The position numbers and the translations under genes are program-made. Below the pieces are notes generated by a model that saw only the letters and a list, made by a program, of their open reading frames with translations, had not been told where the DNA came from and ran no database searches. Below are positions 1,481 through 61,124 of a stretch of DNA of 64,000 nt, piece after piece (within the stretch, counting starts at the first letter, position 1; each line of letters begins with the position of its first letter). Source of the DNA: Torymus aiolomorphi (taxonomy: Eukaryota > Arthropoda > Insecta > Hymenoptera > Torymidae); assembly GCA_036365515.1 (NCBI GenBank), contig CM070873.1:177989604-178053603 (forward strand), in the 5' to 3' direction.

Positions 1481-1861
1481 TCTGAAAATATTATAGATAA
1501 AATCGTTTATCACAATAAGCCTTTTTTTGAGTGGTTGCTGTTATTTGATTGGCCTATATAGAACAGTCCCCAAAAATTTTATGTTTAAATTTTAAAAATA
1601 GATTGCTTGAGTTTGAGTATTCAAAACTGAATAATTATAATAGAAACAAAATGTTTCATTACTTTATTTATCAAAATTACGTTAACAAAATAAATATAAA
1701 AGTAAAAGCGTAAAAATAAATTACATTATTTTAGCTTTTACGAAATATTCTGTAAAACTAATTTAAAATCAAAATTTCAATAAGTCACCATCTTCTAACT
1801 AGTTTTCTGTTTCAAATGTCCAAATATTATTTTTATAAATATCGTGTTCGATCATTACAAA

Positions 1862-2519
1862 CAGCTATAGGTTCCCGTAACCTTTTCCGAAAGGACGTTA
1901 TTGACCCCAAATTTCTCTTCTCTTCTCTATCTTATCTATTTTTCCACACTGAATCTGAATTTTGATGGATTATTAAAAAAAATCCGTTTTTATTATAAAC
2001 AATTTATTGCAAAATATTAAATTTTCGATTTTAAAAAAATTTTAAGCTATTCTATAATCTGAATTTTTTTTTTTCTACGATGGAGCGCTAGGTGTCTGAT
2101 GACGGCTACTAGTACATCACTGATGAGTCCAATCTAGTAGCCTGGACGAAACACCCGTGAATTTTTTAGACTGCAATAAGTGTTTGACTTATTGTTATAA
2201 TCTCTTATTTTTGACAACTTGTTTCGATTTGGGCCTTTAATAAAAAGGACATGAGATTGTTTTTTGCCTTATGCACATTAGCGTCATAACGATTATTAAA
2301 TATTCTATAATCTGAAAAAAAAAACCATTTTTGCTCAGAAAATGACAGAGAATAGTCTAGAATTTTTCAAAATCGAAAATATAACATTTGTGCAATAAAT
2401 TGTTTATAACAAATAAAGACGGATTTTTCAAGAATCTACTATCAAAATTCAGCGTGAAAAAATGCATAAAAAAGAGTTGGTGTCGATGTGCCTTTTGAAA
2501 AAACTACGGGAACTAGCTG
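1862..2519. mobile_element. Fold-back/MITE-like element with ~190-bp inverted arms
   Basis: The left arm (1862-2052) and right arm (about 2325-2519) are imperfect reverse complements along their whole length. They start at CAGCTA...GTTCCCGTA on the left and mirror it as TACGGGAA..TAGCTG on the right. Clear matching blocks include the stretch around CTGAATTTTGAT and the stretch around TATAAACAATTTATTGCA. The centre (2053-2324) holds a hammerhead ribozyme. There is no open frame, so it would be a non-autonomous element. The word GATCAT lies close to both ends but is not placed symmetrically, so I cannot name a target duplication or superfamily. Confidence 0.75.
2091..2155 (+). ncRNA. Type III hammerhead self-cleaving ribozyme
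   Basis: All conserved parts of a hammerhead are present in order. Stem III is 2091-2095 paired with 2151-2155 (5 bp including the A15.1-U16.1 pair), and C2096 is the expected cleavage nucleotide. Stem I is 2097-2101 with 2115-2119 (5 bp), followed by the CUGAUGA core at 2120-2126. Stem II is GUCC at 2127-2130 with GGAC at 2144-2147, followed by GAAA at 2148-2151. The loops of stems I and II contain perfectly complementary 7-mers, CUACUAG (2106-2112) and CUAGUAG (2134-2140), which fits the loop-loop contact that natural hammerheads use for fast cleavage. With stem III open, the arrangement is type III. Predicted cleavage is after 2096. Activity is inferred; the fold is seen directly. Confidence 0.92.
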
Positions 2520-5500
2520 GATCATGGACTGTAGAGTGCACTGAGATTAATCGCAATGCGTAGCCAACTTCAGAGAGAACAACGCTGCGTGTCGGTATGG
2601 CAAATTGTGCTAGCCTCGTTTCTTCACCACTAACTGAACTATGGCGCTGGTAACTGTTCAGTGTTCGCGAATGACTACGACGTCCTCTTAATTATCTATG
2701 TACGTAATATATATATATATATATATAAACATTTGTTTACTATCCTTAATTATTAAATAAACACGCGGCGATATAATTACGAAACACAGTAACGAACTAA
2801 TAACAATTAATTATTGGAAGAAAAGTGAAATAATGTTAACGAACTTGACGAAACCACTACGACTACCTCCCGGTTCAGTAACGTGTGCAGAGAGAATGAG
2901 AGAGAAGTGTGTGTGGGGGGGGGGGGGTCGCGCGACTGTAGAAACCGTGATCACCTACCTCCCGTAAATATGGCCAGTCGCACGTATTGTTTCACTTTTT
3001 CGCGATATCAAGGTATATAAAAATCCCGATTATTAGACGCACGCGATCGACCCAATAAATAAAATAAATTATAAATGCACTTTAAATAAAATATAATTTA
3101 ATAAATGAAATAAATAAATGAAATAAAAGAATATATGGACTTAAATTGAAGAAAATAGTAAAGCGCGAATAAATATGACGCAAATAAAAATTGGTTGGAT
3201 CAGCTAAGAAATCGGCGATAATAAATAGGAAAATCTTACCTTGTCGTAGATCACTGCTCCTCTCGTATATTGAAAATTGTGGTATCGGTGGTAATTAAAT
3301 TTGGATTTCGTGGTAAAATGGGAAAAAAATAACTGTTCGACAAATATTGGTAATTCCTTGATTTTATTTTGTTCCTCGGTCCAAGTCGAGATGATTCGCT
3401 TACAATAATTTGACGGTTCTTCTCGCGCGTAATAAAAATATTCTAACACTTACTACTACGGTATAAGGACTTATAAAAATCACAATAAATTATGAATCGA
3501 CAACACCCTTTGAAATCTTCAACTCGACTGTAGTGGCAACGAATTTTCGCAGCCCGCACACCTGGATCCGCGAAAATTCCCTCCCACTACAATCGTCGCT
3601 GCCTCTCTCGCTCCCGTAACTCCTATCGGCGCAGGTAAGGCAAGGAGCGCGAGAGATGCCCGGGAGGTGCTGCCACGAATCCAGCGCAACGCCTGTTGTC
3701 TTCGTTTCGTGTGCGGTTCGTGGCGGTCGTTGCGCTGGATTAGGCCGTTGCCCCGCTAGCGCAGCGATTCCTGGTCATCGTGCGATTCCATTTCTCAATC
3801 TTCTTTTGCGCAATGTTGAGCCGTATTTTAGTTTAACATTAATCTATCGTTATAAAAATTTATCGTTACGTTAAAATTGCATGAGAAAAATGAAATAGTA
3901 CATGGGAACGTAACATCACCCCCCTCTTGATTTGCTTGTCGCCCCGGCATGCAGATATCGGTCGGATGGTGGCCAATGCACTTGAAGGCGCTCTGACTGA
4001 GTTGGGTTCTCGTTGACGGTGTCGGCCGATTTCGTGCTGCCATAATCAAAGGTTTTATAATTGCGGTATGAAAAAGTAATGCAATGTAGTAAGAGATAAT
4101 TCAATTTCTGATAAACTAAATTGCAAGTATATAAGACTATATTTTTTTCAAAATATATAATTTCTTTAAAATATAATGTTTCGAAAAGGAAATTTTATAG
4201 AAAGCATTGATTGTCCGACCGGGGGAAAACCTTTAGTTTGGAAAGCAACTATTTACCGACGCATCGTATCTGACTACCTGATATACTCTAGACATTCAAA
4301 TTTTTTACTGAAATATATTTTTCGGTTGAATTTGGAAAATAAGTTTGTTTGGATTATTTCGGTGCATTGAATAACAATTTTTATAATTAATCAAAAGTTT
4401 GCATATAAATTTTGTAGTCTAAAAATTAATTAATAAATGATTTTTATTTTCCTATGAATACTTTCTTTAATAGATTATAAAAAATAGAAGAATTGTAGTA
4501 AAGGGATGCATAATATAATGTTAATAAAAGCTTAATTTAAAAAAATAAAAACATGTAGTGGTAAATATTGTTTTTGCAACATTTGATGTAATTCGGTAAC
4601 AATTAATAATTATCCTTTTTTTTCATTTTATTTTTTTTTATTTAACGCTTATGTTCTAAACGGAAAAATAAAATAAAATTTCTGTAATTTCAGATAACGG
4701 CTAGTTCTCACAAAGTTAGGCTGTACACTATCTTTGGAAAAATTTCCGGGAAGATAAAATTATATATAAGCATAGCAACTGTTTTCTCGGTAAACTTAAT
4801 TTTAGAGTTAGGAAGATGTAATTTGGAAATTAAATAATTTAATGATATATGATATTTATTAACGGAAAAGTAAAAATGAAATAAATAGAATGTCGCATAA
4901 TTATTTATAAAAGTCAATTAAATTGCTTTTGTATTAAGAAATCAAAACCATAGTTAGAACATTTAAATTTATTGCTTCAATTAATCGTAATGGTCCAGTA
5001 TCAGTAGACTATTATGCAATATGAACAAAAATGGTGTCTGGGTAGTTACTGATTCCATTGAATTTGACATAACTTAATATTGGAATAACAGAACTTACTC
5101 TCTTACTTAGGTAGATATAGAGGGCAGATCGTGGGAATTATATCATTTTCTATATTCCGAATAAATGCAGGTTTCATTTAAAACCACTAGTAATTCCAAA
5201 AGGAAGTTTCAGAAAAAAAATATATTCAATCTTTATTGAACATTAGTGGTGTTAAACCTTCGATATAGCATACCATGAATTCAGTGATCATAATTATCCC
5301 TATATTAAATATAGGAATATTATGTATAAATGGGGTAAAATTATTTGAAGAATTTGAACATAGTCTAAGGAGTATTAAACAGTGTTAAATACTACCAAAT
5401 CTAAATGAAGTATAACGAAGTAATATGATAGATAATATTGGTGAATTATAAATATAGCGATTACTGCCGCTAAGGAATAAATTTTCCTCGATTGAAATGA

Positions 5501-42895: not shown

Positions 42896-43309
42896 TGTGG
42901 CGCCTGCGCCTGCGCACACACCAGCCATGGCTGACGACAGACAGCGCCATCCGTGCAAGCAGCGCCTTGAGCCTCGCGAGATGTTCGCGCTAGAGGAGCG
43001 TGAGGCACCGGTCTCTTTCCGCCCGCAGCAGCCTTCGACGCACCAGGCTCTCCTCACCAGCAGCCAAGTACCTCGTGCGGACTACGCCTCAGCTCTGGCG
43101 ACGGCACGTTTACAGTCGTGCGCACCCAACTTATCTCATGCCCTGGCGCGAGCAATTCGCTCGGGTTGTACAGCGTGTTATTAGGATTAAATAAAACTAC
43201 AAGTGTTTTGCTACGTGTTGCTACAACTTTATTGTTGCGCCTCTCCATACTCTTCCCCTCCCGGAGTCACTCCTTAATCATCCACAGCGGGAAAACGAGA
43301 GCGCGCACA
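42896..43309 (+). repeat. 5' LTR of the CsRn1-like element
   Basis: This 414-bp LTR contains AATAAA at 43190-43195. The LTR pair differs mostly by transitions. Confidence 0.93.
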
Positions 43310-43310
43310 T

Positions 43311-43328
43311 TGGTGACCCCGAATTCAT
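43311..43328 (+). promoter_or_regulatory. Primer-binding site
   Basis: TGGTGACCCCGAATTCAT begins two bases after the LTR end and starts with the expected TGG, complementary to a tRNA CCA end. I cannot name the tRNA with confidence. Confidence 0.65.
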
Positions 43329-43365
43329 CACAAAAAGCAGCACGTGCGGCGCAACAGGTAAGAGA

Positions 43366-44931
43366 GTGAAGAAAAACAGGAGGCTGCTGCCGAAAAAGAA
43401 AGAACCGGCGCAGGCCGGCCAAGATGGCCGCCTAACTGCCTACTTCTTACGCAACTCTGCACAGCTTGAGGAGCATCAAAGTCTGCCGGCGTCAACACCA
43501 AAGAAACCACCGCGTCCACAGGCGAGACAAAAGCTTTTTGAAAGGAAGCAAAGCAGCGAGCAGCAAGGCGACAACGAGACACACAGCGAGAAGAAGAGCG
43601 ACGATGAGATTCTCAGCGGACAGCAAAGCGGCGACGACTCACCCAGCGAGAGGCAGAGCGACGACGAAACACACGGCAAGCAAGAGGAGACAACCAGCAC
43701 ACTCGAAGAGCAACTCTCTGACCCCGCCAGCGATCCTGACGCTTCGCAAGGCAGCGAAAACTTTGACAAAACAGTCATCGCACGCAGCACAAATGACGAC
43801 GGCCTCGGCGCGCAGCCCAACCTCGTCGGCGAAGCACAGCTCAGCATTTCGTCACGTCTCGCAGGCGCGCATAACCCAGCCGCCGACAGCTTTCCGCCAG
43901 CGTGCAACTCTCGGCAGCAGTCTACACCAGGAGGTACGGAAGGTCAGTTACAAAACCTTACCTCGGCGCCATCGCCAACTCGCTCGCAACCAGTTTCCGT
44001 GCACGTGCTCAACCCTCGCGCTGCGCCTTTCCGCGCCATGGACGACGAAGTCGATCCAACGCTCTCGGCTGACGAAATTTTCGCCGCGAGCATCGCAGCC
44101 GCCGCCTCTAGCCGGATGCCGCCATTTTGGAAAAAGGACCCGCGACTCTGGTTTCACCAAATCGAGTCACATTTTCAAGTGGCAAACGTCCGGCGTGACA
44201 TTGCAAAATTCAACCTAACCGTCACAGCACTGGAAGGAGAAGCTTTAACCGCCGCGGGCGACATTATTAGTAATCCCCCGGTCGAAAATAAGTACGAAGC
44301 GCTAAAGGCGCGCATCCTCGCGCGCCTCACCGACTCACCCGAGAGGCAGCTGGACCGCATGCTCAACGAATGCTCGCTCGGAGACTCAAAGCCCTAGGAC
44401 CTTTACAGAAGGATGTCTCGCCTCGCCGGAGACAGGGCGACTGAGGCAGTTTTACGCAGCCGATGGCTTGCACTTCTGCCACACCACGTGATCAGCATTT
44501 TAAAAATTTTTAAAACAAATTCAGTCGACGAACTGATAGCAGCTGCAGACCAGCTCATGGAAACACCGATAATCCCTAGTGCTTTCTCTGTCAATAGCAG
44601 TTCTCTGGAGCCACGATCGCCATCGCCAGGAGTTTTCGCCACGCAGCATATGCGAGACTCCGACGACATTAGGCTCCTCCTAGGGCAGCTCATTGGCATT
44701 TCCAGAGAAATCCTGGAAAAAGTCACGCCCCCAGCAAGGCATGATCGCCAAGAACGCAACAGAGACAGGAGTCTTAGCAGGCAGTCACGACAGCGCTCCG
44801 CAACGCCACACCGCCAAGATGGCAACGGCCTCTGTTACTACCACTACAGATTCGGGGCGGCATCGCGCACCTGCAGAAAGCCGTGCAACTACAACGGCCC
44901 TGCGGCAGCAGCCACTCAGGGAAACGCCTAA
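43366..44931 (+). pseudogene. Gag of the CsRn1-like element, one premature stop
   Basis: Gag would form the particle that packages the RNA. Residues 1-220 are low-complexity, rich in Ser, Glu, Gln and Pro. The conserved capsid region follows (MPPFWKKDPRLWFHQIE near residue 250). An in-frame TAG at 44395-44397 ends the first open stretch after LGDSKP. The same frame then continues from 44398 to 44931 with the rest of the capsid and a terminal CYYHYRFG..C...C cluster, the non-canonical zinc motif seen in CsRn1-type gag proteins. A single nonsense codon is therefore the only visible lesion. Confidence 0.85.
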
Positions 44932-47900
44932 GGCTGCCCTCTGTCCTGGCGGCAAAAGGCAGCCTAGACAACCACCCGCAGTGCCCGCCAGAACATCGTC
45001 TATACGTATTCGACAAAACAACAGGAATTAAATTCCTCGTGGACTCAGGGTCCTCGGTATCACTCATACCACAAGGCACGACACACCCACGAGCCAAGAA
45101 AGAGAAGCTAAAGCTCGCAGCAGCGAACTGGACTACAATCTACACCTATGGACGGCGCGTCATGGAACTCAACCTAGGGCTACGCAGAGCCCTCAGCTGG
45201 GCCTTCGTCATCGTCGACGTCGAGTGCGCCATACTTGGCGCAGACTTCCTGGCACATTATGGCTTAACCATCGACCTCAAAAGCCACCGCCTCGCAGACA
45301 CGCAAACCACATGCTGCATCGAAGGCATCACGCACACAGCAGCAGTCCACGGCGTATGCATCGCTTCACCGCAGCCACCGGGTACCGAAGCACTCAACGA
45401 GTACTTCAGGAACGTCCTAAAGGACTACAGCGATCTCTTCGAGCAGCGCGCCACCCCCGGAGCAGGCCCCACCCAAACCGTGCAGCATCACCTGGTAACC
45501 ACGGGTCCACCAGTGTTCGCCAGCCCTCGCCGACTCATCGGAGAAAAGTATGCAGCAGCGAAACATCACTTCGATCTGCTTCTTCTCCAAGGCACGGTTC
45601 GACCGTCAAGCAGCCAATGGGCCAGCCCGCTACACCTCATCAAGAAAGGAAAAACATGGAGGACCTCAGGAGACTATAGACGTCTCAACGCCATAACCGT
45701 TCCAGATCGCTATCCGATCCCCAGGATCGAAGACTTGCTCCTCAGCTTGCATGACTGTAAGATATTCACAAAGCTCGACCTAAACAGGGCATATTTTCAG
45801 ATCCCGGTAGCACCAGAGGACGTAGAGAAAACCGCAGTCACAACACCATTCGGCCTGTTCGAGTTCGTTGGCATGCCACTAGGCCTACGCAACGCCACAC
45901 AGACCTTTCAGCGACACATGGATGCCCTCTTTCGGCACCTGCCCTTCGTGCGAGTCTATTTGGATGACATACTGATCGCCTCAGCCAACGCAGAGGAGCC
46001 CCTTCAACACCTGCGTAGCGTCTTCGAAATTCTGCGCTCCAGTAAGCTCTCGCTAAACCCGACAAAATGCCTCATCGCTAAGGAAGACGTCATCTTCCTG
46101 GGCTACCACATAAACGAAACGGCTTCAAGCCACCGGATGACCGAGTCACCGCCATCTTGGAGCACCAGCAACCAGCAACCATCTGCGACCTGCGCAGATT
46201 TAACGGCATTTTCAACTACTATCGAGCTTCTATTCCAAACGCAGCTGAGCTCCAAGCACCACTAACGGACCTCCTCCGAGGTTCGACAAAGAAGAAGGAC
46301 AAACGCCCAATTACCTGGACCCCGCAGCTGTCAGAGGCCTTTAAGCGCTCTAAAGGTGGCATAGCCCACGCAGTGAGGATGTCATTCCTCGCGCCAGGCG
46401 CACCGCTTGTCCTCTCGACAGACGCCTCTTCTTCGCATCTTGGAGCCGCGCTGGATCAACGTCAAAACCACGTCTGGAGACCCCTTGGACTTTACTCGCG
46501 AAAGCTCTCTCCAGCCGAGCAAAATTACAGCCCGTACGACCGAGAACTACTCGCAATCTACGCGGCACTCAAACACTTTCAGCACCTAGTAGAAGGAAGA
46601 GAGTTCACCGTGAAAACCGATCACAAGCCGCCAGTCAAGGCTTTGGAGCAGCGTCCAGAAAAGGCATCACCGCGCCAACTGCGCCAACTCGACTTCATAA
46701 GTCAGTTCTGCCTAACCCTTACACATGTGAGAGGAGAAGACAATGTCGTCGCTGACGCACTGTCGCGAGTCGCAGCAATCAACATGCCCTCAATCCTCAA
46801 CGCGGACGCCATTCACGAAGCCCAGCAGCGAGAAGACATTTCAGAGAACCACGAGCTCGCGACGTCATCGCTAGCACTCCAATCTCTCATCATCGACGGA
46901 CACAGGCTGCTGTGTGACATCTCCACAGGCCTGGTGCGACCTTACATCCCACAAGATCTTCGAAGAGCAGCATTCAACGTCGTCCACTCGCCAGCGCACG
47001 CCAGCGGATGCGTCACGGCCAAATCACTAAAGGAGAAATTCATCTGGCCAGGACTCAAGAGAGACGCGCTGAAATGGGCTCGAGAGTGCATCAACTGTCA
47101 ACGAGCAAAAATTCACCGCCATGCCAGACTGCAGCCAACAAACATTGAGGTCCCGAACAGGAGATTTAATCACATACATCTAGACCTCATCATCATGCCG
47201 CCCGTTGATAACTTCAGGTACTGCCTAACAATCATTGATCGTTTCACGCGTTGGCCACAGGCCATACCACTGCAAAGCTCCACGGCAGAAGCAGTTTCAA
47301 ACGCTCTCTACAGGCACTGGATCGCGCTCTTTGGCATGCCACTCACAATCACAACGGACCAAGGGCCGCAATTCGAATCGTCTCTCTTCGCTGCACTGGT
47401 GCAACTCATCGAAGCAGACAAAGTACGCACAACAGCGTATCACCCGCAGAGCAACGGCATGATGGAGCGTTGGCATCGGACGCTGAAGGCGTCACTCATG
47501 TGCAGCCCGCACATACCCTGGACTCAACTGCTGCCCACAGTTCTACTAGGCCTCATAACGGCGTACAAGGAGGACATCAAAGCGTCCCCAGCAGGACTTC
47601 TCTTAGGCACGACTCTCCGCATCCCAGGAGAATTTTTCACTGTCAGCGACCAGCCGGTGGATCCTCAGACCTTCATAGACCACCTACGCTGCCATTTCAG
47701 GGAGCTGAAATCCACCCCAACAGCCCACCACGTCAAGGCCAAGCAGTTCACGCACCGCAGCCTCGGCAGCTGCACACACATCTTTCTGAGACTCGACGCA
47801 GTCAAGCCGCCACTCACACCACCCTACACGGGGCCACACCTGGTGCTTCAACAACTGGATGACCGCAGATACGTTATCTTAGTCAACCGAGAAGCAAAAA

Positions 47901-48388
47901 CAGTCAACCTAGACCGTCTCAAGCCAGCGTTCATCGCAGCAGAGGACCTTACAACCCAGCCAGCCATCCAGCCAAAGCAACCCCCAAGGTCTCCGACAGT
48001 TATGTTTCAGGTTCCAGACCTACAGAGGTCAGCGCCGGCACCCACGTCGCAATCAACATCGTGCCCTCCTCACCACTCGGCCACTAGGAGGGGAGTAGCT
48101 GTGGCGCCTGCGTCTGCGCACACACCAGCCATGGCTGGCGACAGACAGCGCCATCCGCGCAAGCAGCGCCTTGAGCCTCGCGAGGTGTTCGCACTAGAGG
48201 AGCGCGAGGCACCGGTCTCTTTCCGCCCGCAGCAGCCTTCGACGCACCACGCTCTCCTCACCAGCAGCCAAGTACCTCGTGCAGACTACGCCTCAGCTCT
48301 GGCGACGGCACGTTTACAGTCGTGCGCACTCAACTTACCTCATGCCCTGGCGCCAGCAATTCGCCCGGGTTGTACAGCGTGTTATTAG
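44883..48388 (+). pseudogene. Pol of the CsRn1-like element, one frameshift
   Basis: The frame 44883-46265 overlaps the end of gag. It carries the aspartic protease (FLVDSGSSVSLIP, near residue 51) and reverse transcriptase (LDLNRAYFQIP, then YLDD near residue 359). A frameshift near 46120 moves the reading into the frame that stays open to 48388. That frame holds RNase H (TDAS near its residue 88, TDHKP), the zinc-binding domain of integrase (H..H, CINC), and the integrase core (LDLI, TTDQGPQF, then the Glu in NGMMERWHR). The frame has no stop before the 3' LTR and runs 288 bases into it. Confidence 0.9.
48086..48099 (+). promoter_or_regulatory. Polypurine tract
   Basis: AGGAGGGGAGTAGC lies immediately before the 3' LTR, where plus-strand DNA synthesis would be primed. 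Confidence 0.7.
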
Positions 48389-48513
48389 GATTAAATAAAA
48401 CTACAAGTGTTTTGCTACGTGTTGCTACAACTTTATTGTTGCGCCTCTCCATACTCTTCCCCGCCCGGAGTCACTCCTTAATCATCCACAGCGGGAAAAC
48501 GAGAGCGCGCACA
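48100..48513 (+). repeat. 3' LTR of the CsRn1-like element
   Basis: This LTR has the same length and ends as the 5' copy. The pol reading frame extends into it and stops at 48386-48388. Confidence 0.93.
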
Positions 48514-48541
48514 TTTTCATAATAAAAAAAAAAACTTTAAA

Positions 48542-50292: not shown

Positions 50293-51069
50293 ATAAAAAA
50301 TTAATATGTTTATATTGTGTAATGCTTTTAAATAGGAAACAACGTAAATATGCACTAAGTTTATAAAAGCACGCTCGGGCCCAGCGTAGAAGTAAATCTT
50401 TTGAGCTCTACATTTCTCCAACTTGAAAATTTAGGGTTTGTAGCTTATAACTTGTACTTTCGAATGGTGCTATGCATTTTGAAGAACAACATGTTATACT
50501 TTAAAAAAATGGTTCTGAACTTTTCACTCGAAAAGTGTTTGGGAGTAAAAAGCATAGCACCATTGGAAAGAGCAAGAAAAAATCTATTGATATATGTGTC
50601 TTGTTTTTTTCTGAGAGACTCAACATACGATTACCAGCTAATTATACCAAGACCGAGTTTGCGGCGCGTCCGAGCGCAACGCGAAGAGCTCGCGCGACGA
50701 CTCACCGCTGTCTTTTTAATCTTGTTACTTTTGAATCCTTCATTTCTCCAAGTTGAAAATTTAGGATTTTGCAGCTTAAGAATTGTACTTTCGAATGGTG
50801 ATATGCATTTTGAAAAAAAAAACATGATATACTTTGAGAAAAATGGCTTTGAACTTTCAATTCGAATTTTCGACCAGAAGAGTTTCGGAGAAGAAAACAA
50901 TAGCGCCATTGGAAAGAGTAGCAAAAAATCTATCGATATATCTCTTTTGTTTTTTGTTTCTGAGAGACTCAAAATACAATTATGAGCGAGTTGGACAGAG
51001 CGTGTTTCGCACGAACAATGCGTCGCGCACGCACGCTGTCTGCTTTCTGGCGGACGTTCCCATATATGG

Positions 51070-51866
51070 AAGTACAACTTTAGGTTTGATCATTATTTCT
51101 TTATATTTTAGATTATTCAGGAAACTGTTTCTGGATGTATCATTGTTATTTCTGATATTAATAGTAATTAATCTTTTATTCATGTATTTTTTAATGAAAT
51201 TTTGAGGGTAACCGTTGTTTATCAGAAAATTTTCTATGATTTTTAAATTTTTGTCATGGAAAATCTTATCGGACAATAAGATACTCTTATGTACAAGATT
51301 ATAAATAATGGCAATTTTCTGTGAAGCAGGATGGTGTGAATAAAAATTAATGTAACGTACCGAAGTAGTCTCTTTTCTAAACCAATTTATAATGGGTGTA
51401 TCGTTTTCTTTTCTAAATATCTTGTATCAAGGAAGTTTATTTGTTTGTTTACCTCTCTCTCCATAGTAAACTGAAGAGATTCATTATATTTATTAAAAGT
51501 TTCAAGACATTTTTCAACCATGTTTTCGTGAATTATGAATAGGCAATCGTCAACGTACCGTTTGTGCAAAATATAACTAGATTTAATTTTGTCTAAACAA
51601 TTAATTTCTAAAATTCTAAAAATTCCAAAGTAATATCAGCGAACCATGGGCTCGTGCAGAAACCCATAGGTGCACCACTGACTTGCTTATAGAATTTACC
51701 ATTAAATTATAAAAACTGTTTTTTAGAGATGATATTGGCTTTGAAAAGTACTTATTGAAAAGATTATACAAAGCTTTATTGATTGCGTATGTAGGACTAC
51801 CAAACGCCGAGACAATAATTCTAACCGGATTATTAGGTTTATATATTTTGATTAATCCATACTTTT
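51070..51866 (-). pseudogene. Penelope-like reverse transcriptase, N-terminal part of a split copy
   Basis: Minus-strand translation runs through KPNNPVRIIVSAFGSPTY, then VSGAPMGFCTSPWFADI, then YVDDCLFIIHEN (catalytic Asp pair, about 51555), the FTMEREVNKQINFLD block, and the thumb region with INFYSHHP and NGYPQNFI. This is the reverse transcriptase of a Penelope-like element. One or two stops interrupt it. It breaks off at the TATATGG duplication of the inserted transposon and resumes at 39281. Its upstream end meets a plus-strand non-LTR element at about 51866, so the N-terminus is lost. Confidence 0.85.
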
Positions 51867-51971: not shown

Positions 51972-52002
51972 GAGTGACTAGACCAGGTTCCGACCGGAAG
52001 GT

Positions 52003-52971
52003 TGTAACGTGGCAAATTGCCAGTTACCTATGAACGCGTTCCAAAGGAGATACGTGAAGACGAGCACGGCGGCCGCGGCGAGCTACGCTCGACACCCGAG
52101 CACACACATGCGCGCGCCCGTTCCTCCCCGCTGTCGTCACCGCGTACCCGTCCCTTCCCTCCCGTATCCAGCAGGCCAGGAGACGGCCGAACCGGTAGCA
52201 GCTACAGCAAGAGCAGCTGCAGCTGGAGCATCAGCGAGATCGCTCTCCCAGGCCGCTGATAGGAGTAGCCGACGCGCAAGAGAGAGAGAGAGAGAGAGCG
52301 AGAAGCGCTGTGCCATAGCGACGTCGGCCGTCCATGAGAGACGCCGCGCGCGAGCAGCAGGAGTCACGTGGACTGCTCGTTCGCGCCGCGGTGAAGAAGA
52401 CGGCCGATCGGCAAACTGGAGCGGAGAGCAGAGCGAGCACGCCGGCCGGCATTTTCTTCATTCTGTCGCCTACCGCCGTGCCGCGTGCCGCAAGCAAGAG
52501 ACCGAAACAGATTCGCGCGTGTGTGCCCAACGAGCGTCGTCGCCGAGAGAGAGTGAGAGCTGCAACGACGGTCGTCGTCGAGGGCCCAGCTAAGAAAGCA
52601 GAAGGAGAGAGAGAACGAGAGCCCTGCAACAGCGGAACCTCCTGGCCGAGGTTGGCCCCTTTTATTTCCAGTCCCCGTTGTTCCTCGCGTGGTGTGTGTG
52701 CGTTTCCGCGTCGGGAGTCGCGAGAGACTCCGAACTCGCGCCAGCAGCAGCTCGTGCTGTAGCTGTAGCTCAGATTAGCATTCGTTGCTCTCAGTGAAGC
52801 TAGCCGGCGAACGCTTATGATTTGGTGCAAGTGACACGTGCACCTGGCGCCCATACCGTTGTATTGTACATTTAATTTATAGTAATAAACTACTTAGAGT
52901 TTTACCCGGTTGTTCTGTGAATTTAGTAATTACCCGCGCACCTCTGCCCTGATCCCTAGCGGAGTGTGACA
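52003..52971 (+). repeat. 5' LTR of the 9.1-kb gypsy element
   Basis: This 969-bp LTR is GC-rich in its first 750 bases, with a GA run at 52275-52300 and AATAAA at 52884-52889. Several long antisense and sense open frames occur in the LTR, but the same frames recur in the 3' LTR without any domain. I treat them as composition artefacts. Confidence 0.93.
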
Positions 52972-52973
52972 AG

Positions 52974-52993
52974 TGGCGCAGCCAACGTGGGGC
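52974..52993 (+). promoter_or_regulatory. Primer-binding site
   Basis: TGGCGCAGCCAACGTGGGGC lies two bases after the LTR. It resembles the tRNA-Lys-type site TGGCGCCCAACGTGGG with a small internal change. Confidence 0.65.
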
Positions 52994-53800
52994 TGCGGTA
53001 AAGGCCGTGGCAAAGTAGAAGGGACCGCGTCGTGATTTCGCCATTGCGGAGCGCACACACAACCGGGAACCGCGGGGGAAAAGCGTTCTGGCGGCCATTT
53101 TTACATTACCGCGTGCAAGCGTTTATAGACGCCATAACTTTATTAAATTTAGCCAGACGTTTACGAATAATTGGTGGATAATTGTGCTTCCAATAATAAT
53201 TGAATTACTTTGGAAATTTTATTGCGATTTGTGCGTGATTCTGCGATTAAGAGTTCATGAGATACTCGCAAAATCACATCTTGCTACAGCTTTAGTCACG
53301 CGGCACTTAAAGAATCTGCAACGTGCTCAGGGAGTGTGAAGTTGAGAGTAACTTCCTGATCACGCGTGCAGGACAGAATCATTTCCTGTGTTCCGTTTTT
53401 TTCTGATTTGACATTTTGGTCATTTTGATTCGGATTTCATTCCTTTTCCGTGGGAGAAAGGCCTCGCTTACGTTTCCTTTCCATGCCTCCTTGAAATTCC
53501 CACGCCTTCGTTAAAAGACTTTTAGGAACAGGGAGGGGGGAATTTTGCTTCAGGAGTAATTTGGTTTTTGCGAGAGTAAGAGAGATAGGTGCGTCATCGT
53601 CGCACGGAATCTCTCACGTAACTCGGCTGATTGGCTTGATTTTCTTTTTTTTGGTTTTGCCTTGCTGTGCTTGCTTTTAGATTATTTTTTTTGTATTGCT
53701 ATAATTTCTAGTTCATAACTTAATTAATTTAAAGTAAGTGGGTGGGGGAAAAGAAAATCAACGGAGCTACTTGGCCGAGGCTAACTGAGTAAAGATTAAA
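52994..53800 (+). other. Untranslated leader of the gypsy element
   Basis: About 800 bases between primer-binding site and gag have no supported gene. The stretch is T-rich from 53390 to 53720 and presumably contains packaging signals. Confidence 0.5.
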
Positions 53801-55626
53801 ATGGAACACCACGATCGGAGTTGGGCTTCGCTCGGTGTCGACGAAAATGATTTAATGTGCGTCGATCCGATAGCTGCAGCTGAAGCGCTAAAGAGATCAA
53901 TTAATAAGTTAATCGACGGGGAAGTCGCGATGACTGCTCAGCGGTTCGGGCTGAATATTCGCTCAGATGCGATCATTTTGCGTAATAGGTTGGAGAGGCA
54001 CGAGATGCGACGCCATTTTGGCGCAGACGCCGCGCCATGGGACCCGGCCAGAGACGAGCCGGCGGACGAGCCCACTTCTGCGCATAATCTTTCGTCGTCC
54101 AGTAGGAATTCTGTTGCACGGTTTTCGCCATCTAGGGTTCCAGTGCAGCCGATGGTAGCTCCAGAGTATGCAGGAGCAGAGCCGCTCTCCACAGGCCAAT
54201 CGACAGGCAGATTTCGTGATCCAATTTCGATGGAGGGGCCGTCGCAGATTTTTAAGTCGAGGCTGCACATCGAAGTGAGTGAGCCGCGGCGTGCGGCCGA
54301 GCAGCCTACAGCTGGCAGACATATTGCTCCAGCGTTACAGAGTTCTGACGCGCAGAGGCGTATTAGCATCGCCGCGCCGGAAGTGTTTCATGACATGAGG
54401 GAGTCAGCTCCTAATCCGCGTGCACAATCCACACGTTATCCTCTCGGTCCACTTCGTGCTCACGAGCATAGCACATTCATGGAAAATAGTATGGATTTAA
54501 CGAGTGTGGCGAGTGCGCGGAACGAGATTCCATTATCCGCGAGTGAAAGAGGGGCGGGGCGGCAGCCGAATGATTGTTCGACGGTACGTCGTTTTTGCCG
54601 CTTCCAGCGTTACGGTCGCAACAGATGAGAAATCCGGCTGCTCCGTCCACAATGTATCCGGGGAGAGAATTCGGCATCGTTGCTTCTGTGGTTGGTTCCC
54701 TGCCTTTGACTTGTATTCCTCAGCTTTCAGCTAATGTTGCTCTAGGAAATTTCGACGGCGTAGCAGGGCCTGCTGTCTACTCACAATGTCCAATGCCGCG
54801 AGTAACACCAGGTTATCATGAGCCACCTCTCATGTCCTCAGCGTCGCTCGCTCAAAATTTTGTTTCAGCTGGAGCTTCACAATTGAGTGGATTTAGAGCA
54901 CTAGTCGAGCCGGCGCGCACGTATTACGGTCAGCCAGCGCCGCCACCGTCGTTTCATTATACGCCTGGATATTTTCCGCAGCCTTTCTTGTCTTCGCAGC
55001 TGCTGATGCCATATGCTCCAGTGTATCTTCCCTATCCAAGCAACTTGCCGCAAGCGCATTCGCGTTTTTCGCCTGCAGTTCTGCCGCCTGTTGTGACAGG
55101 GCTTCATTCAACTCCAATGCACACGGATGCAAGGTTGCAGACTCACCCGGGGAAATTTGATGTCTCTGCTCCTGGGATGAGTGAAGATGCGTCGTTTTTC
55201 GAGCGTTCATCGCTTTATAAAGAGAAACGCACGACGGAGCTACTCACCAAGTGGCATATTTCGTTTAAAGGGGATAGGAAAAGAGACTCCGAAAGTTTCA
55301 TTGCACATCTAACGAAATGCAAAGACACTTACAAGCTAACTCTCAAGGAAATAGTGAAAGCCTTGCCATCAGCTATCGATGATGAGTCGTGGCAATGGTT
55401 TCGCCGAGAATATCAGTTCTGGAGGACGTATGAAGAATTTGTGGACGCGTTTCGCCTGCAGTACAGCTTTGAAGACGTGCAGGAGAGACTACGGACGGAG
55501 CTGAAGGTGCGAACGCAAGGACCAAGTGAGGAGATTTCCACTTATACTATACTAATACCACGGCGCGTCGATGTACCAAGTGCAATTCGACTACGGCGGC
55601 GGGAAACGAGTAAGAGGGAAAGTTAA
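53801..55626 (+). pseudogene. Gag of the 9.1-kb gypsy element, frameshifted
   Basis: The frame 53801-54628 (275 codons) is the N-terminal part, low in Cys and rich in Ser, Arg and Pro. A frameshift near 54600 moves the reading to the frame ending at 55626, which contains a Pro/Tyr-rich stretch. The conserved capsid block follows (WHISFKGDRKRDSESFIAHL, later WQWFRREYQFW and FVDAFRLQYSFEDVQERL). Just after ISTYTI another frameshift or deletion occurs, and only a short CTKC remnant is visible. No complete zinc knuckle is found in gag, in contrast to the end of pol. Confidence 0.8.
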
Positions 55627-55765
55627 CGGAGTCAACTCACCCCGTGCTACTTAAGACTCGACTCCTCCCACTTCTGATTCGATCGCGGTTACTCCAGAGA
55701 ACAGTTCCGCGGGAGCTATAAGCGAGGGAGACAACCCTCAAGTTTTAGCTCCGGAATCACTGATA

Positions 55766-58700
55766 ATGAGAGGCGCTATCAGTAACGTCGAGCCAAGGTT
55801 ATTCTTCAACGTAGAATTGAATGGAAGAAAACTCTTAGGCATGCTCGACGATGGTTCCGTTCAGTCGTATCTCGGCAAAGGTGTCAGCAAGGAATTTGCC
55901 GAGAAATTGGAAAAGGAAGCAGCTTCAGTACGCGTAGCTGATGGAGGTGCAGTGAAGCTACAAGAAGTACTGAATCTGACGGTGAGCATCGATAATACAC
56001 AATTATCTATGCCTTTCCGTGTAGCAGATGAGCTACAGTACGACTGCGTTCTCGGAATCGACTTCAACCGGTTGTTTAAGATGAAGATCGACTACGAGAA
56101 TGATACATGGTGGACACCGAAGGGAGTAGTGCATCAGTTTTACCCTTACGGCCAAGATCCAACCTGCTTCCCAGCTCTAGCCAGCATAGGAAGACTGAGT
56201 CGTGCTACAGCTGATCAGCAGTTGCTTATTGACGAAATCAAACAGAGATTGATTCCACCGACACCTGAAAAGCTAGGGTTAGCTAATGTCGCCCCGCATT
56301 TCATTGACATTCAAGGAAATGAACCCATTCGCCAAGCTCCTCGGAAGTATACTCCGAAGATGTTGCAGACGGCTTGGGCTGAAGTCTATAGGATGCTGGA
56401 GGAGGGAATTATCGTGCCCTCGGATAGCCCCTGGCGAAGCTGCCCTGTGTTAGTTCCGAAATTATACGATCTGTTCCGATTTTGCATAAACTATAGGCAA
56501 GTTAATAAGAATACTAAGTCTATCGCGTATCCATTGCGAAACATGGATGATATACTTGATAAGTTAAGTTCCGCTAAGTATATTTCTAAGCTAGATTTAA
56601 GCCAGGCATACCACCAGATCCCGTTGGATCCGAAGTGCAGAGAGGTCACCGCATTTTCTGTACAAGGGCGAGAACTTTTCCACTTCATGCGGTTACCATA
56701 TGGGCTCACAAATGCTCCAGCTCTGTTCCAGCGCATCATGGATAACCTAATCAAGGCTGCCTGGGAACTGTATGTGTTCGCCTACTTAGACGATGTCATT
56801 ATCGTCTCGCCGACATTTGAAGAGCACACAAAATGGTTAGAGATCGTGCTCTCGGCGTTAAAAGATGCAAACCTACAGATTAACCTCAAAAAGTCTGAGT
56901 TTTGTTGCGCGGAGGTTAAGTACTTAGGTTATATCGTTAACGACGACGGACTGAAGATTGATGAAGACAAGGTGAAGCTCATCCTCGAGTATCCAGCACC
57001 CCTCAACATCAGGCAGTTGAGAAGATTTCTCGGCATGATTGGCTGGTATTCCAGATTTATAGCTCACCTAGCAGAGTATAAAGCACCGCTAACCAAGCTG
57101 CTGAGGAAGGATGTTCGGTGGCAGTGGCACGAAGAGCAACAGCAAGCGTTTGAGAAGCTGAAACTCGCACTGACGCAAGCCCTTGTGCTTGCAAGGCCAG
57201 ATCTGTCGCTACCCTTCACTCTGCAAACAGATGCGAGTGATTACACTATAGCTGGAGTACTGACGCAAGTATTTGATGACGAGGAGCACCCTATCTATTT
57301 TGTGAGTAGGACTCTGTCGAAGGCAGAGAGAAATTATACTGTCACTGAGAAGGAGTGCCTCGCCGTCTTATGGTCTGTCGAGAGGCTGCGGGGTTATTTG
57401 CTAGGTGAGAAGTTTACAGTAATCACGGATCACCACAGCCTGTTGTGGTTAAATAACCTCAAAGACCCAACTGGTCGATTAGCGAGGTGGAATACGGCTC
57501 TGCAAATGTACAACATTAGATTTGTACACCGTAAGGGTGCGCTACACAAAGTTCCTGACGCTCTGTCGCAGGCATGGGAAGGAACTTACGAGCTTGCAGC
57601 TATAGCCACTGCTACAGCTGAAGATCCGTGGTATCAAGGGAGAATTAGTAATATTGAGAAAAACCCGAGGAAATACCTGGATTGGAAGGTAGTAAATGGC
57701 TTACTGTACGCGCATCGTCCGAATAAGACCGTGGATCCGTTGCTGCTGGACATGGATGCGTGGAAGCTCGTCCTTCCGGAAGCAGATCGAGAAAAAGCCC
57801 TAGCTGAAGCTCATAACACTCCACAAGCAGATCACTTAGGCGTGGAGAAGACTTTTGCGAGAGTGGCGACATATTATTATTGGCCAGGCTATTATCGAGA
57901 TATGTGTTGGTTCGTAGCTGCCTGCCAAGTATGTCAAGCTCACAAAAGCTCTCAGCAAGCTCCAGCTGGGCTGATGACGGAGAGAAACCTGGATAGTCCA
58001 TGGGTTGTCGTAGCAGCTGATATAATGGGCCCAAAACCTTTCTCGCGTACTGGTAACAGGTATGTAATTGTCTTTGAAGACCTGTTTACTAGATACGTTG
58101 AGCTGAAGGCGTTGAAGAAAGCAGATGCTAAATCAGTGCTAAAAGCCTTTGAGGAATTGATCGTATATCGTTGGGGTTGCCCTCGGGTTTTGCTTACGGA
58201 TAATGGCACAGAATTCTCTAACCGGATGGTTACTGAGAGGTTAGGTGAATATGGAATTCTACAATCCACGATTCCGCCCTACCATGCACAAGCAAACCCG
58301 GTGGAAAGTGTCAACCGTAATTTTCGACCAATGATCAACAGCTTTTTAGCCGAGGATCACAGAGATTGGGATTTGCACTTAAACGAATTGTGCTTCGCGT
58401 TAAATAGTGCTGTGCACTCGTCATTAGGGGTTTCTCCCGCGTTTCTTAATTTGGAGCGTAACCCTGTTCCCTCCACTTTACTCCGGAATCACATGGAAAA
58501 TCCTATTCCTACCTCTCCTCCGGACGTGGATAAACGGAAGACTCGAGCCAGCCGATTGCCTGCCTTGCATGATTTGGTACGCAGACACATGGATAAAGCT
58601 GTAGCAAGGCAAGCCCGAAATTACAACAAAAATCGACGAGAAGTCCTCCACCAAGTCGGAGACCTCGTAAGGCGCAGAAACCATGTGCTATCGTCCGCGG

Positions 58701-59401
58701 AGAACCGATTTGCAGCTAAGCAAGCGCCTAGGTTTGTTCGACCGGCTAAGGTGGTAGAAGTCTACTCTCCAGTAGTGTATTTGGTGGAGGATCTTGATTC
58801 AAAGCGGCGGACGAAAGTATTCGTCAACGATCTAAAAGAGTATACGCCGCCGAGAGGCCTGCGACAGCTGGAAGCTCCAACTACAGGGACCAATTTTGAA
58901 ATTGCAGAGGATGGACTCATCAGACGAGGAATGGAGGCCGTCCCTTCCCATCGGTCGAGGAACCAAGCTCGCCCGGCCGATGCCGACGCCAAGACAGGGC
59001 CGGGTGCGCGGTCGAGGACGAGCAATCCTCTTCCCGCCACCACCAGGATTGGCGGCAATTCATCCCCTCCCCGCCGTCGGGGTCGCCCCCCCCCCGGGCT
59101 GCTCCAATTCCGGGGAGGGTTCCAGACCTCCCGGGAACCGGAGCAGGACCGCGACGGGGTCGAAGGCGACCCACGCTCGCCCTTGGTGACTCGGTACGGC
59201 TTCCCGGCGGCCGAGCCTGAGATGCCGCGGTCACCCTCGCCGCAGAAGATAGAGGGAGAGCCGGGGTCTACGCGACCCAGCACCCAGCCGTCGAGGGAGG
59301 CCGGATACGCACGCCCCGGCTGCTGGAATTGCGGAGAATTTGGCCACAGCCGGATCCACTGCCCCCAGTCGCGCAGAAGAGTCTGCTATATGTGTGGTTA
59401 A
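55766..59401 (+). CDS. Pol polyprotein of the gypsy element (1211 codons open)
   Basis: This long open frame encodes the replication enzymes. In order: an aspartic protease-like start (GMLDDGSVQSYLG, near residue 30), reverse transcriptase (LDLSQAYHQIP, then YLDD near residue 340), RNase H (TDAS near residue 489, TDHHSLLWL), the integrase zinc domain (H..H, CQVC near residue 715), the integrase core (ADIMGP near 751, TDNGTEF near 811, Glu in NPVESVNR), and a basic Pro-rich tail. The last 30 residues hold a CCHC zinc knuckle (CWNCGEFGHSRIHC) and the first half of a second (CYMCG). A TAA stops it there. The same frame continues open to 59482 with VATCPSC, so the stop looks like a recent nonsense mutation. 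The protease has Asp-Asp-Gly instead of the usual DTG/DSG. Confidence 0.88.
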   Translation: MRGAISNVEPRLFFNVELNGRKLLGMLDDGSVQSYLGKGVSKEFAEKLEKEAASVRVADGGAVKLQEVLNLTVSIDNTQLSMPFRVADELQYDCVLGIDFNRLFKMKIDYENDTWWTPKGVVHQFYPYGQDPTCFPALASIGRLSRATADQQLLIDEIKQRLIPPTPEKLGLANVAPHFIDIQGNEPIRQAPRKYTPKMLQTAWAEVYRMLEEGIIVPSDSPWRSCPVLVPKLYDLFRFCINYRQVNKNTKSIAYPLRNMDDILDKLSSAKYISKLDLSQAYHQIPLDPKCREVTAFSVQGRELFHFMRLPYGLTNAPALFQRIMDNLIKAAWELYVFAYLDDVIIVSPTFEEHTKWLEIVLSALKDANLQINLKKSEFCCAEVKYLGYIVNDDGLKIDEDKVKLILEYPAPLNIRQLRRFLGMIGWYSRFIAHLAEYKAPLTKLLRKDVRWQWHEEQQQAFEKLKLALTQALVLARPDLSLPFTLQTDASDYTIAGVLTQVFDDEEHPIYFVSRTLSKAERNYTVTEKECLAVLWSVERLRGYLLGEKFTVITDHHSLLWLNNLKDPTGRLARWNTALQMYNIRFVHRKGALHKVPDALSQAWEGTYELAAIATATAEDPWYQGRISNIEKNPRKYLDWKVVNGLLYAHRPNKTVDPLLLDMDAWKLVLPEADREKALAEAHNTPQADHLGVEKTFARVATYYYWPGYYRDMCWFVAACQVCQAHKSSQQAPAGLMTERNLDSPWVVVAADIMGPKPFSRTGNRYVIVFEDLFTRYVELKALKKADAKSVLKAFEELIVYRWGCPRVLLTDNGTEFSNRMVTERLGEYGILQSTIPPYHAQANPVESVNRNFRPMINSFLAEDHRDWDLHLNELCFALNSAVHSSLGVSPAFLNLERNPVPSTLLRNHMENPIPTSPPDVDKRKTRASRLPALHDLVRRHMDKAVARQARNYNKNRREVLHQVGDLVRRRNHVLSSAENRFAAKQAPRFVRPAKVVEVYSPVVYLVEDLDSKRRTKVFVNDLKEYTPPRGLRQLEAPTTGTNFEIAEDGLIRRGMEAVPSHRSRNQARPADADAKTGPGARSRTSNPLPATTRIGGNSSPPRRRGRPPPGLLQFRGGFQTSREPEQDRDGVEGDPRSPLVTRYGFPAAEPEMPRSPSPQKIEGEPGSTRPSTQPSREAGYARPGCWNCGEFGHSRIHCPQSRRRVCYMCG

Positions 59402-60145
59402 GAGGGGATCAGTGTGGCCACCTGCCCTAGCTGTTGCCAAACCTGGCGCCAGCGTCAGCTGGAACGCCTAGGCAGCAAGTAGGTCCAGCTGCAGCGGTAG
59501 CATATGTATGTGTAGTGTCGGTAGGGAGAGCCTAAAGCAATAAAGCAGCCTCCTTACCTCATCTAGATGGTTTTCCATTTATCTTACCTATCCCCTTCCA
59601 TTTGATTTCCTAAGTAAAAGAGAGACGTTTTCTCTCACCAGCAGGCATGAAGCAGGTCGCAATAAAATCACATAATTCAGAGAGAGAAATTCGTGAATCG
59701 TTGGCTAAATTGGTTTATTCCAGAACGTAGCTCTAAAAAGCGCAGTAGTCCAAGGGATCGGCCAGGTAAGATGCTGTTGCAGCATAAAAATTAAATTCTT
59801 TATACTATTGTAATTTCTGAGTGAATGGAGATGTTGGAGTGCGGTGTGGAAGCTCGCGATCGGGATCGGTACCTGCGTATGATTGTAGTTCGGAAAGGTT
59901 ACAGTCGCCAGGTTGCTATAGCTAGGAAACACACTCATCGGGTTACCCTCACACAGATTTACACGCAAGCCTAGCTGCAGAAGAAGAAGCTAAGGGGACA
60001 CAAACAGTTACACCCACACCGCTGCAGCTAAGACAGCTTAGCTTAGGATAAGTTGTAATTAGAGGAATTAGTATAGTCAAGTAAGAAGACGAAGTAAACG
60101 TGCGAAAGTAGTCAACGGACTATTTCGAGTTTAGGAGGGGGGAGT
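59402..60145 (+). other. 3' untranslated region and polypurine tract
   Basis: No open frame of note. A purine tract (AGGAGGGGGGAG, about 60133-60144) precedes the 3' LTR. A CAATAAAGC poly(A)-like word is at about 59539. Confidence 0.6.
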
Positions 60146-61120
60146 TGTAACGTGGCAAATTGCCAGTTACCTATGAACGCGTTCCAAAGGAGATACGTGA
60201 AGGCGAGCACGGCGGCCGCGGCGAGCTACGCTCGACACCCGAGCACACACATGCGGGCACCCGTTCCTCCCCGCTGTCGTCACCGCGCACCCGTCCCTTC
60301 CCTCCCGTATCCAGCAGGCCAGGAGATGGCCGAACCGGCAGCAGCTACAGCAAGAGCAGCTGCAGCTGGAGCATCAGCGAGCTCGCTCTCCCAGGCCGCT
60401 GACAGGAGCAGCCGACGCGCAAGAGAGAGAGAGAGAGAGAGAGCGAGAAGCGCTGAGCCATAGCGCCCGGCCGTCCATGAGAGACGCCGCGCGCGAGCAG
60501 CAGGAGTCACGTGGACTGCTCGCTCGCGCCGCGGTGCAGAAGACGGCCGATCGGCGAACTGGAGCGGAGAGCAGAGCGAGCACGCCGGCCGGCATTTTCT
60601 TCATTCTGTCGCCTACCGCCGTGCCGCGTGCCGCAAGCAGGAGACCGAAACAGATTCGCGCGTGTGTGCCCAACGAGCGTCGTCGCCGAGAGAGAGTGAG
60701 AGCTGCAACGACGGTCGTCGTCGAGGGTCCAGCTAAGGAAGCAGAAGGAGAGAGAGAACGAGAGTCCTGCAGCAGCGGAACCTCCTGGCCGAGGTTTGCC
60801 CCTTTTATTTCCAGTCCCCGTTGTTCCTCGCGTGGTGTGTGTGCGTGTCCGCGTCGGGAGTCGCGAGAGACTTCGAACTCGCGCCAGCTGCAGCTCGTGC
60901 TGTAGCTGTAGCTTAGATTAGTTCGTACATTCGTTGCTCTCAGTGAAGCTAGCCGGCGAAGGCTTAAGATTTGGTGCAAGTGACGCGTGCACCTGGCGCC
61001 GATATCGTTGTATTGTACATTTAATTTATAGTAATAAACTACTTAGAGTTTTACCCGGTTGTACTGTGAATTTAGTAATTACCCGCGCACCCCTGTCCTG
61101 ATCCCCAGCAGAGTGTGACA
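60146..61120 (+). repeat. 3' LTR of the 9.1-kb gypsy element
   Basis: This 975-bp LTR is collinear with 52003-52971. AGGT follows it directly as the second copy of the target duplication. Confidence 0.93.
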
Positions 61121-61124
61121 AGGT

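Follow-up and report, generated by a model that had tools for sequence, protein, structure and literature searches.

A repeat family with a type III hammerhead ribozyme and Penelope-like, head-to-head insertions

Type III hammerhead ribozymes have mostly been reported from plants and viroids. In plants they reside in non-autonomous LTR retrozymes, which have LTRs, two ribozymes and 4-bp target duplications (PMC4918200, PMC11722881; these papers, like all others given by PMC number below, are cited for the portions available to us). The non-LTR retrozymes of animals are ~350-bp AT-rich tandem repeats without LTRs or an open frame, with a type I hammerhead in each unit and target duplications longer than 4 bp, and they yield circular RNA (PMC7229834). 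Penelope-like elements (PLEs) enter AT-rich targets as copies with inverted ends, one of which may have a 30–40 bp tail, between target duplications; they encode their own reverse transcriptase and endonuclease and contain minimal type I hammerheads (PMC3846280, PMC11167929). Endonuclease-bearing PLEs are described from animals and, in the available part of the source, not from protists or fungi (PMC3846280). Type III hammerheads with Watson-Crick loop-loop pairs are known from termite and dipteran genomes, where they occur as isolated motifs, their helices longer and their contacts shorter than in the family described here, and from HDV-like circles; a search for this pseudoknotted architecture returned none in hymenopterans, hemipterans and a cockroach, according to the portion of the paper at hand (PMC7936874). 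The pDo500 satellite of Dolichopoda cave crickets places a hammerhead within an insect tandem repeat of ~500 bp (PMC2837043).

Here we describe a repeat family represented by one copy in the window, the whole 64,000-nucleotide stretch of DNA that was analysed. Small tandem repeats with one hammerhead per unit, low GC content and no frame link it to the animal non-LTR retrozymes, from which it differs in its type III hammerhead, long kissing contact, head-to-head arms and two fixed ends, A and B (PMC7229834); since its hammerhead is of type III and not type I, the family is a variant of that class and not a standard member. With PLEs it shares the head-to-head layout, a ~36-nt one-sided tail, AT-rich targets and target duplications, but it lacks their frame (PMC3846280, PMC11167929). 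Like plant LTR retrozymes it is non-autonomous and has a type III hammerhead, whereas it has no LTR and its duplications are long (PMC4918200, PMC11722881). Unlike the termite and dipteran motifs it is mobile, with contacts of 9–11 bp and no delta-antigen frame (PMC7936874), and for pDo500 a head-to-head insertion layout is not described in the accessible text (PMC2837043). We propose, with a probability of roughly 70%, that the family is a non-autonomous retrozyme with a type III hammerhead, and that a PLE enzyme with two internal starts copies it from RNA circles.

The hammerhead ribozyme and its loop-loop contact

The ribozyme and the two strands of its loop contact lie on the plus strand of the window:

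2091-2155 (65 bases), plus strand: type III hammerhead ribozyme, from the letters, Rfam Hammerhead_3 (36.2 bits) and a core-and-stems finder
2104-2112, plus strand: strand in loop I for the kissing contact (9 bp), GGCTACTAG, from the letters
2134-2142, plus strand: strand in loop II for the kissing contact (9 bp), CTAGTAGCC, from the letters

As read from the letters, stem III pairs 2091-2095 with 2151-2155 (GGTGT/ACACC, 5 bp), stem I pairs 2097-2101 with 2115-2119 (5 bp in the window copy) and stem II pairs 2127-2130 with 2144-2147 (4 bp, with an A-U closing pair possible in addition). The core motifs CUGAUGA (2120-2126) and GAAA (2148-2151) are unbroken, and C17 corresponds to 2096, directly 3' of which cleavage would be expected. 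With its conserved core and three stems, stem III being the open one, the motif is confirmed on sequence grounds as a genuine type III hammerhead. A preliminary description of this DNA had reported a complete type III hammerhead, and its core and all three stems are borne out by the letters; its accompanying remark on the predominance of type I among animal hammerheads is in line with published work. It had also reported a 7-nt contact between the loops. The two 7-mers are exactly complementary, but the contact is longer than described and comprises 9 bp (2104-2112 with 2134-2142).

Rfam at the gathering threshold gave zero matches across the window. When positions 1500-3000 were searched in E-value mode, Hammerhead_3 (RF00008) matched 2089-2157 with 36.2 bits and an E-value of 9.8e-6 (for 1.5 kb), so that the proposed type III check yields a match, but one below the gathering score of 48.5, the loops of this ribozyme being long. 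Because this curated cut-off is not reached, the ribozyme was classed by its core, topology and covariation. A finder requiring the core plus three stems reported a single site in the window, namely this ribozyme. The same finder returned 1 site per 300 simulated 64-kb windows of equal dinucleotide make-up and 0 with a loop match of at least 7, in keeping with the earlier judgement that chance assembly is unlikely.

The near-identical copies of the window family are uninformative on covariation; among them, only the window copy carries a two-base change (AT to TA), which reduces stem I from 6 to 5 bp. Two-sided changes that keep pairs were found through a diverged subfamily (L076) and a second type III hammerhead of the genome (L077), whose loops differ and also pair over 9–11 bases. 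As a MAFFT alignment of five ribozymes misplaced L077, the pairs were tabulated by hand, in a table of six sequences with few changes. Stem III pairs are kept by two-sided changes between the window family and L076 and between L077 and L079, and the outermost kissing pair within the L077 family (L077 versus L080). Between the families, such changes keep three kissing pairs and three stem I pairs. Shortened contacts also occur, with 5 pairs in one L076 unit, where loop II is shorter, and 6 pairs in L073. The preliminary description had named covariation of the stems among genomic copies as a test, and the result supports its type III reading with a Watson-Crick contact between the loops, as far as sequence comparison can do so.

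The main role of the complementary loops could also be to block the ribozyme once circles are finished, by way of a hairpin, instead of raising the rate of cleavage through a kissing contact. Among nested folds of the ribozyme segment, a plain hairpin is favoured over the hammerhead (−24.5 versus −12.2 kcal/mol, kissing pairs left out); this blocking hairpin is the minimum-free-energy fold and is present in the circular fold of the unit as well, and for the RNAs of plant retrozymes a fold in which the ribozyme is blocked has been described (PMC4918200). We nevertheless find it rather unlikely that blocking is the main role, given the Watson-Crick loop-loop pairs described for genomic type III hammerheads from termites and flies (PMC7936874), and the two structures are not mutually exclusive.

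Copies, ends and arms of the repeat family

Searching the window's own genome (1.085 Gb in 21 contigs) with positions 1900-2500 yielded at least 243 matches (best 40 of 877 candidates scored), which provides the further genomic copies that the preliminary description had suggested looking for. Among the matches listed, the window aside, similarity covers ~2075-2304 at 96–98%. The loci lie on five of the contigs (157–267 Mb). By these matches, the ribozyme is part of one copy of a mobile repeat family. A search of the same genome with RF00008 (68 of 148,516 candidates scored) recovered L076 and L077 and missed the window family. The following features describe the window copy, A and B being the two ends at which arms of the family stop:

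2048-2063, plus strand: left target-site duplication, TATTCTATAATCTGAA
2064-2074, minus strand: run of 11 T, read as a minus-arm stub (A side), by inference from L075, L060 and L061
2075-2304, plus strand: partial retrozyme unit (~230 of ~352 nt) ending at point B, from genome matches and unit mapping (u330>208)
2301-2316, plus strand: right target-site duplication, TATTCTATAATCTGAA
1862-2519, no strand: older element with long inverted repeats (1862-2075 / 2314-2519), the target of the retrozyme and outside the mobile unit

The ribozyme thus lies inside a partial repeat copy at 2064-2300 flanked by a 16-bp target duplication. Inverted repeats on both sides (1862-2075 / 2314-2519) could make the ribozyme part of a MITE or fold-back DNA transposon. 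At 20 loci, however, similarity between copies comprises window positions 2075-2304 plus at most a few bases, and the 16-bp duplication abuts the insert directly; the inverted repeats are absent from the other retrozyme copies examined. We consider a MITE origin extremely improbable and rejected it, the inverted repeats being the interrupted target. In viral contigs, a word from the inverted repeats gave zero matches, and a generic hammerhead pattern matched 19 stretches.

Other repeats populate the window. Positions 540-1436 hold two to three diverged repeat copies at ~372-bp spacing with a recurrent GTCGATAAACGTATTGAC-like word. Positions 42896-48515 are an LTR element (416-bp repeats, 97% alike) with reverse transcriptase, RNase H, integrase and a DUF7041 domain, and 52001-61122 a second one (~980-bp repeats, 95.5% alike) with a 1211-aa frame containing reverse transcriptase, RNase H and integrase. 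Between them, 50900-51650 contains broken pieces of a Penelope-like reverse transcriptase on the minus strand (~51.0–51.6 kb); Pfam gave zero matches on two of these pieces.

The first 20 stretches retrieved are tandem arrays with a period of ~352 bp, in which a minus arm precedes a plus arm. GC content in the unit is 38%, its longest stop-free stretch has 43–44 codons, and its circular fold (−89.8 kcal/mol) is more stable than those of 60 mononucleotide shuffles (−72.9 ± 6.1 kcal/mol). Of 172 full-length ribozyme copies (counted with a duplicate locus, L059, included), 155 have one of two sequences that differ solely outside the ribozyme. Ribozyme sequence is intact in most units, which supports reading it as a processing site. 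The diverged subfamily L076 (L076:358-1670; G000 C1, near 137673711) is likewise head-to-head, with blocks of 75–82% identity and a stem III altered on both sides relative to the window family; from a reading of its letters, it appears to have ends that correspond to A and B as well as a duplication of 13 bp.

Mapping 29 loci to unit coordinates left 28 independent ones after L059, which is L058 reversed, had been dropped: 17 from the first retrieval, four as delimited by the search, six from the second retrieval and the window. Two arms with both outer ends retained were seen at 21 of these 28 loci, a share that is not representative, since twenty stretches were chosen mostly for matches on both strands. 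All 21 combine an arm ending at A with an arm ending at B, with 0 cases of A/A or B/B; under free choice of ends, the chance of this is 2^-21. A falls at unit positions 234–246 (mean 240.7) and B at 197–210 (mean 204.9), a difference of 35.8 (~36 nt). All 21 two-ended loci have direct duplications of 11–17 bp. AC stands before the left duplication at 11 of the 21 loci and GT after the right duplication at 7, with one or the other at 16, whereas these dinucleotides have a frequency of ~5%. Head-to-head copies, a one-sided tail of 30–40 nt and target duplications, the combination known from PLEs, thus occur together at 21 of the 28 loci.

Seven of the 28 loci lack two full ends. In the window and in L075, the A side shows a T-run, the plus arm extends to B and the duplications are 16 bp long; the T-run is taken as an A-side stub because long A/T runs stand at the A ends of L075, L060 and L061, and the window copy would then be such an insertion with its minus arm shrunk to the T-run. 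L071 consists of one arm, which ends at A, with a 12-bp duplication; L034 likewise has just one arm, which ends at B, along with 14 nt of filler and an 11-bp duplication. L066 retains one A end and has lost the other end; no such duplication was found at L066, L073 and L074. L058 and L059, at 63.04 and 137.37 Mb on C5, contain one and the same insertion but face opposite ways, a pattern suggestive of a duplicated genome segment. Beside L058 is a transposase-like frame with DUF4817, a domain linked to arthropods. Along with the endonuclease-bearing PLEs of this genome, it points to a probable arthropod host; in a plant host, an LTR family such as the one described below would be commonplace and the PLE-type family even more unusual.

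Arms reach about a dozen near-identical units. Over 120 full units, the mean number of differences was 1.44 within an arm (371 pairs), 1.53 between opposite arms (302 pairs) and 4.45 between different elements (6467 pairs), and several elements have an identical private base in most units of both arms, although array homogenisation could be an alternative source of this likeness. The junctions between arms are scattered over the unit, with an offset from the mirror point within 3 nt in 1 of 22 and within 10 nt in 3 of 22.

Likeness of both arms in their variants would also be expected if a single cDNA folded back and copied itself, and such self-priming has been proposed for head-to-head PLE copies of A. 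vaga with palindromic junctions (PMC3846280). The junctions of L051 (offset 0) and of L062 and L068 (offset 10) leave room for it in some copies. As a general account we hold it to be very improbable, as 19 of 22 junctions are more than 10 nt from the mirror point, and a second arm made in this way is not expected to finish at the opposite fixed point in every element. Two starts on one template are preferred over such snap-back on the basis of the same RNA in both arms, the two fixed ends and the scattered joins.

Penelope-like elements and a possible route of copying

The layout of the insertions points to a Penelope-type enzyme that would return small RNA circles to the chromosomes as DNA copies. 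The hammerhead would be the processing site of a frame-less, non-autonomous retrotransposon (retrozyme) with a unit of ~352 nt. Tandem copies would be transcribed, ribozymes would cut the RNA into unit-length pieces, and a host ligase would close these into circles. A PLE reverse transcriptase with a GIY-YIG endonuclease would then cut both target strands ~13 bp apart, and both target 3' ends would prime on the same RNA, one at A and one at B, ~36 nt apart. Each cDNA would follow its circular template for anything between a fraction of a turn and about a dozen turns, and joining of the two cDNAs at a chance offset would produce a head-to-head array flanked by the target duplications. What we infer here are the cleavage, the circles, the rolling copying and which PLE would be the helper.

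GIY-YIG sequences are abundant in this genome, with at least 120 matches (150 of 4041 candidates scored), several of which form pairs of one minus-strand and one plus-strand match separated by a few kb. In the single PLE that was read completely (L078:227-4559; G000 C3:45705800-45710800), the open frame is 862 aa long and contains RVT_1 and GIY-YIG; this element is itself head-to-head, with a 14-bp duplication and a 38-bp tail, the same layout as in the retrozyme. Its repeats contain a minimal hammerhead-like core, on which Rfam reported nothing up to E 5. No convincing shared sequence was found between L078 and the retrozyme, and as their similarity is limited to a 17-nt near-palindromic match (E 0.001), no helper PLE can be assigned. 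PLE gene pieces adjoin retrozymes in L064 and L073 and also occur in the window. Since the retrozyme unit has no frame for a reverse transcriptase with GIY-YIG, it is not a PLE and would at most be the passenger of one.

For an anole PLE, reverse transcription in vitro starts from two adjacent internal sites that match the tail, and the enzyme cuts and extends both target strands and favours AT-rich DNA (PMC11167929). Against the model, hammerhead mutants of this PLE still insert in vitro, and in the portion of that work available its RNA-seq gave no ends at the hammerhead cut site (PMC11167929). Published duplications of A. vaga PLEs measure 8–10 bp (PMC3846280), compared with the longer 11–17 bp here, and the retrozyme has many units per arm.

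A LINE-type enzyme could be responsible instead, with multimeric linear RNA, target-primed reverse transcription and twin priming, and with neither PLE nor circle. Duplications of 11–17 bp are LINE-like, twin priming yields a head-to-head layout as its expected product, and A/T runs are present at some A ends. For Nematostella repeats, a 15-bp duplication has been compared with LINEs (PMC4918200). On the other side, all 21 of 21 cases pair one fixed end with the other, which is the published tail pattern of PLEs, and near-identical units, up to about a dozen per arm, are more readily explained by a circle than by an RNA that should cut itself. We therefore judge a LINE-type origin improbable and keep to copying of circles by a PLE enzyme.

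An LTR family with type III hammerheads and implications

The second type III hammerhead belongs to a family with the layout, as read from sequence, of plant LTR retrozymes. L077 (L077:527-1681; G000 C5:19269125-19270279) is an element of 1155 bp with LTRs of 304 and 306 bp, running from TGTG to CACA, and each LTR contains one type III hammerhead. With the best 40 of 278 candidates scored, the family comprises at least 16 spanning matches (15 over 1-1155 and one from base 3, L077 included), at least 8 matches of single-repeat size and a diverged subfamily at 80–90%. In six copies (L077 and L079–L083), 11 of 12 ribozymes pass the finder, 774–850 nt apart. Exact 4-bp duplications flank L080, L081 and L083 and not L077, that is, three of the four copies with both outer ends. 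LTRs, type III hammerheads and 4-bp duplications are accordingly all found in this family, and LTRs, two ribozymes and 4-bp duplications are common to L077 and the plant elements (PMC4918200, PMC11722881). In L077, where a primer-binding site and a polypurine tract would be sought, TGGTGACCCCG.. follows LTR1 and CTGGGGAGGGCGCC precedes LTR2; no tRNA was matched. For animal hammerhead repeats, the available part of the literature reports no primer site or polypurine tract, save a tRNA in schistosome repeats (PMC4918200).

Our search of the literature, largely open-access, found no description of head-to-head type III retrozymes or of animal LTR retrozymes; one group announces related work in preparation (PMC7936874, PMC7761336). 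That one animal genome, probably of an arthropod, has two retrozyme systems built on one extended-kissing type III hammerhead, a PLE-spread form with rolling two-start copying of a circle onto both strands and a plant-type LTR form, is a proposition to which we give even odds. These families place type III hammerheads in mobile elements of a probable animal, and they may offer a natural ribozyme with a kissing helix of 9–11 bp. The arrays act as a recording: they bear on how PLEs make head-to-head copies with a one-sided tail, and on which enzyme moves animal retrozymes.
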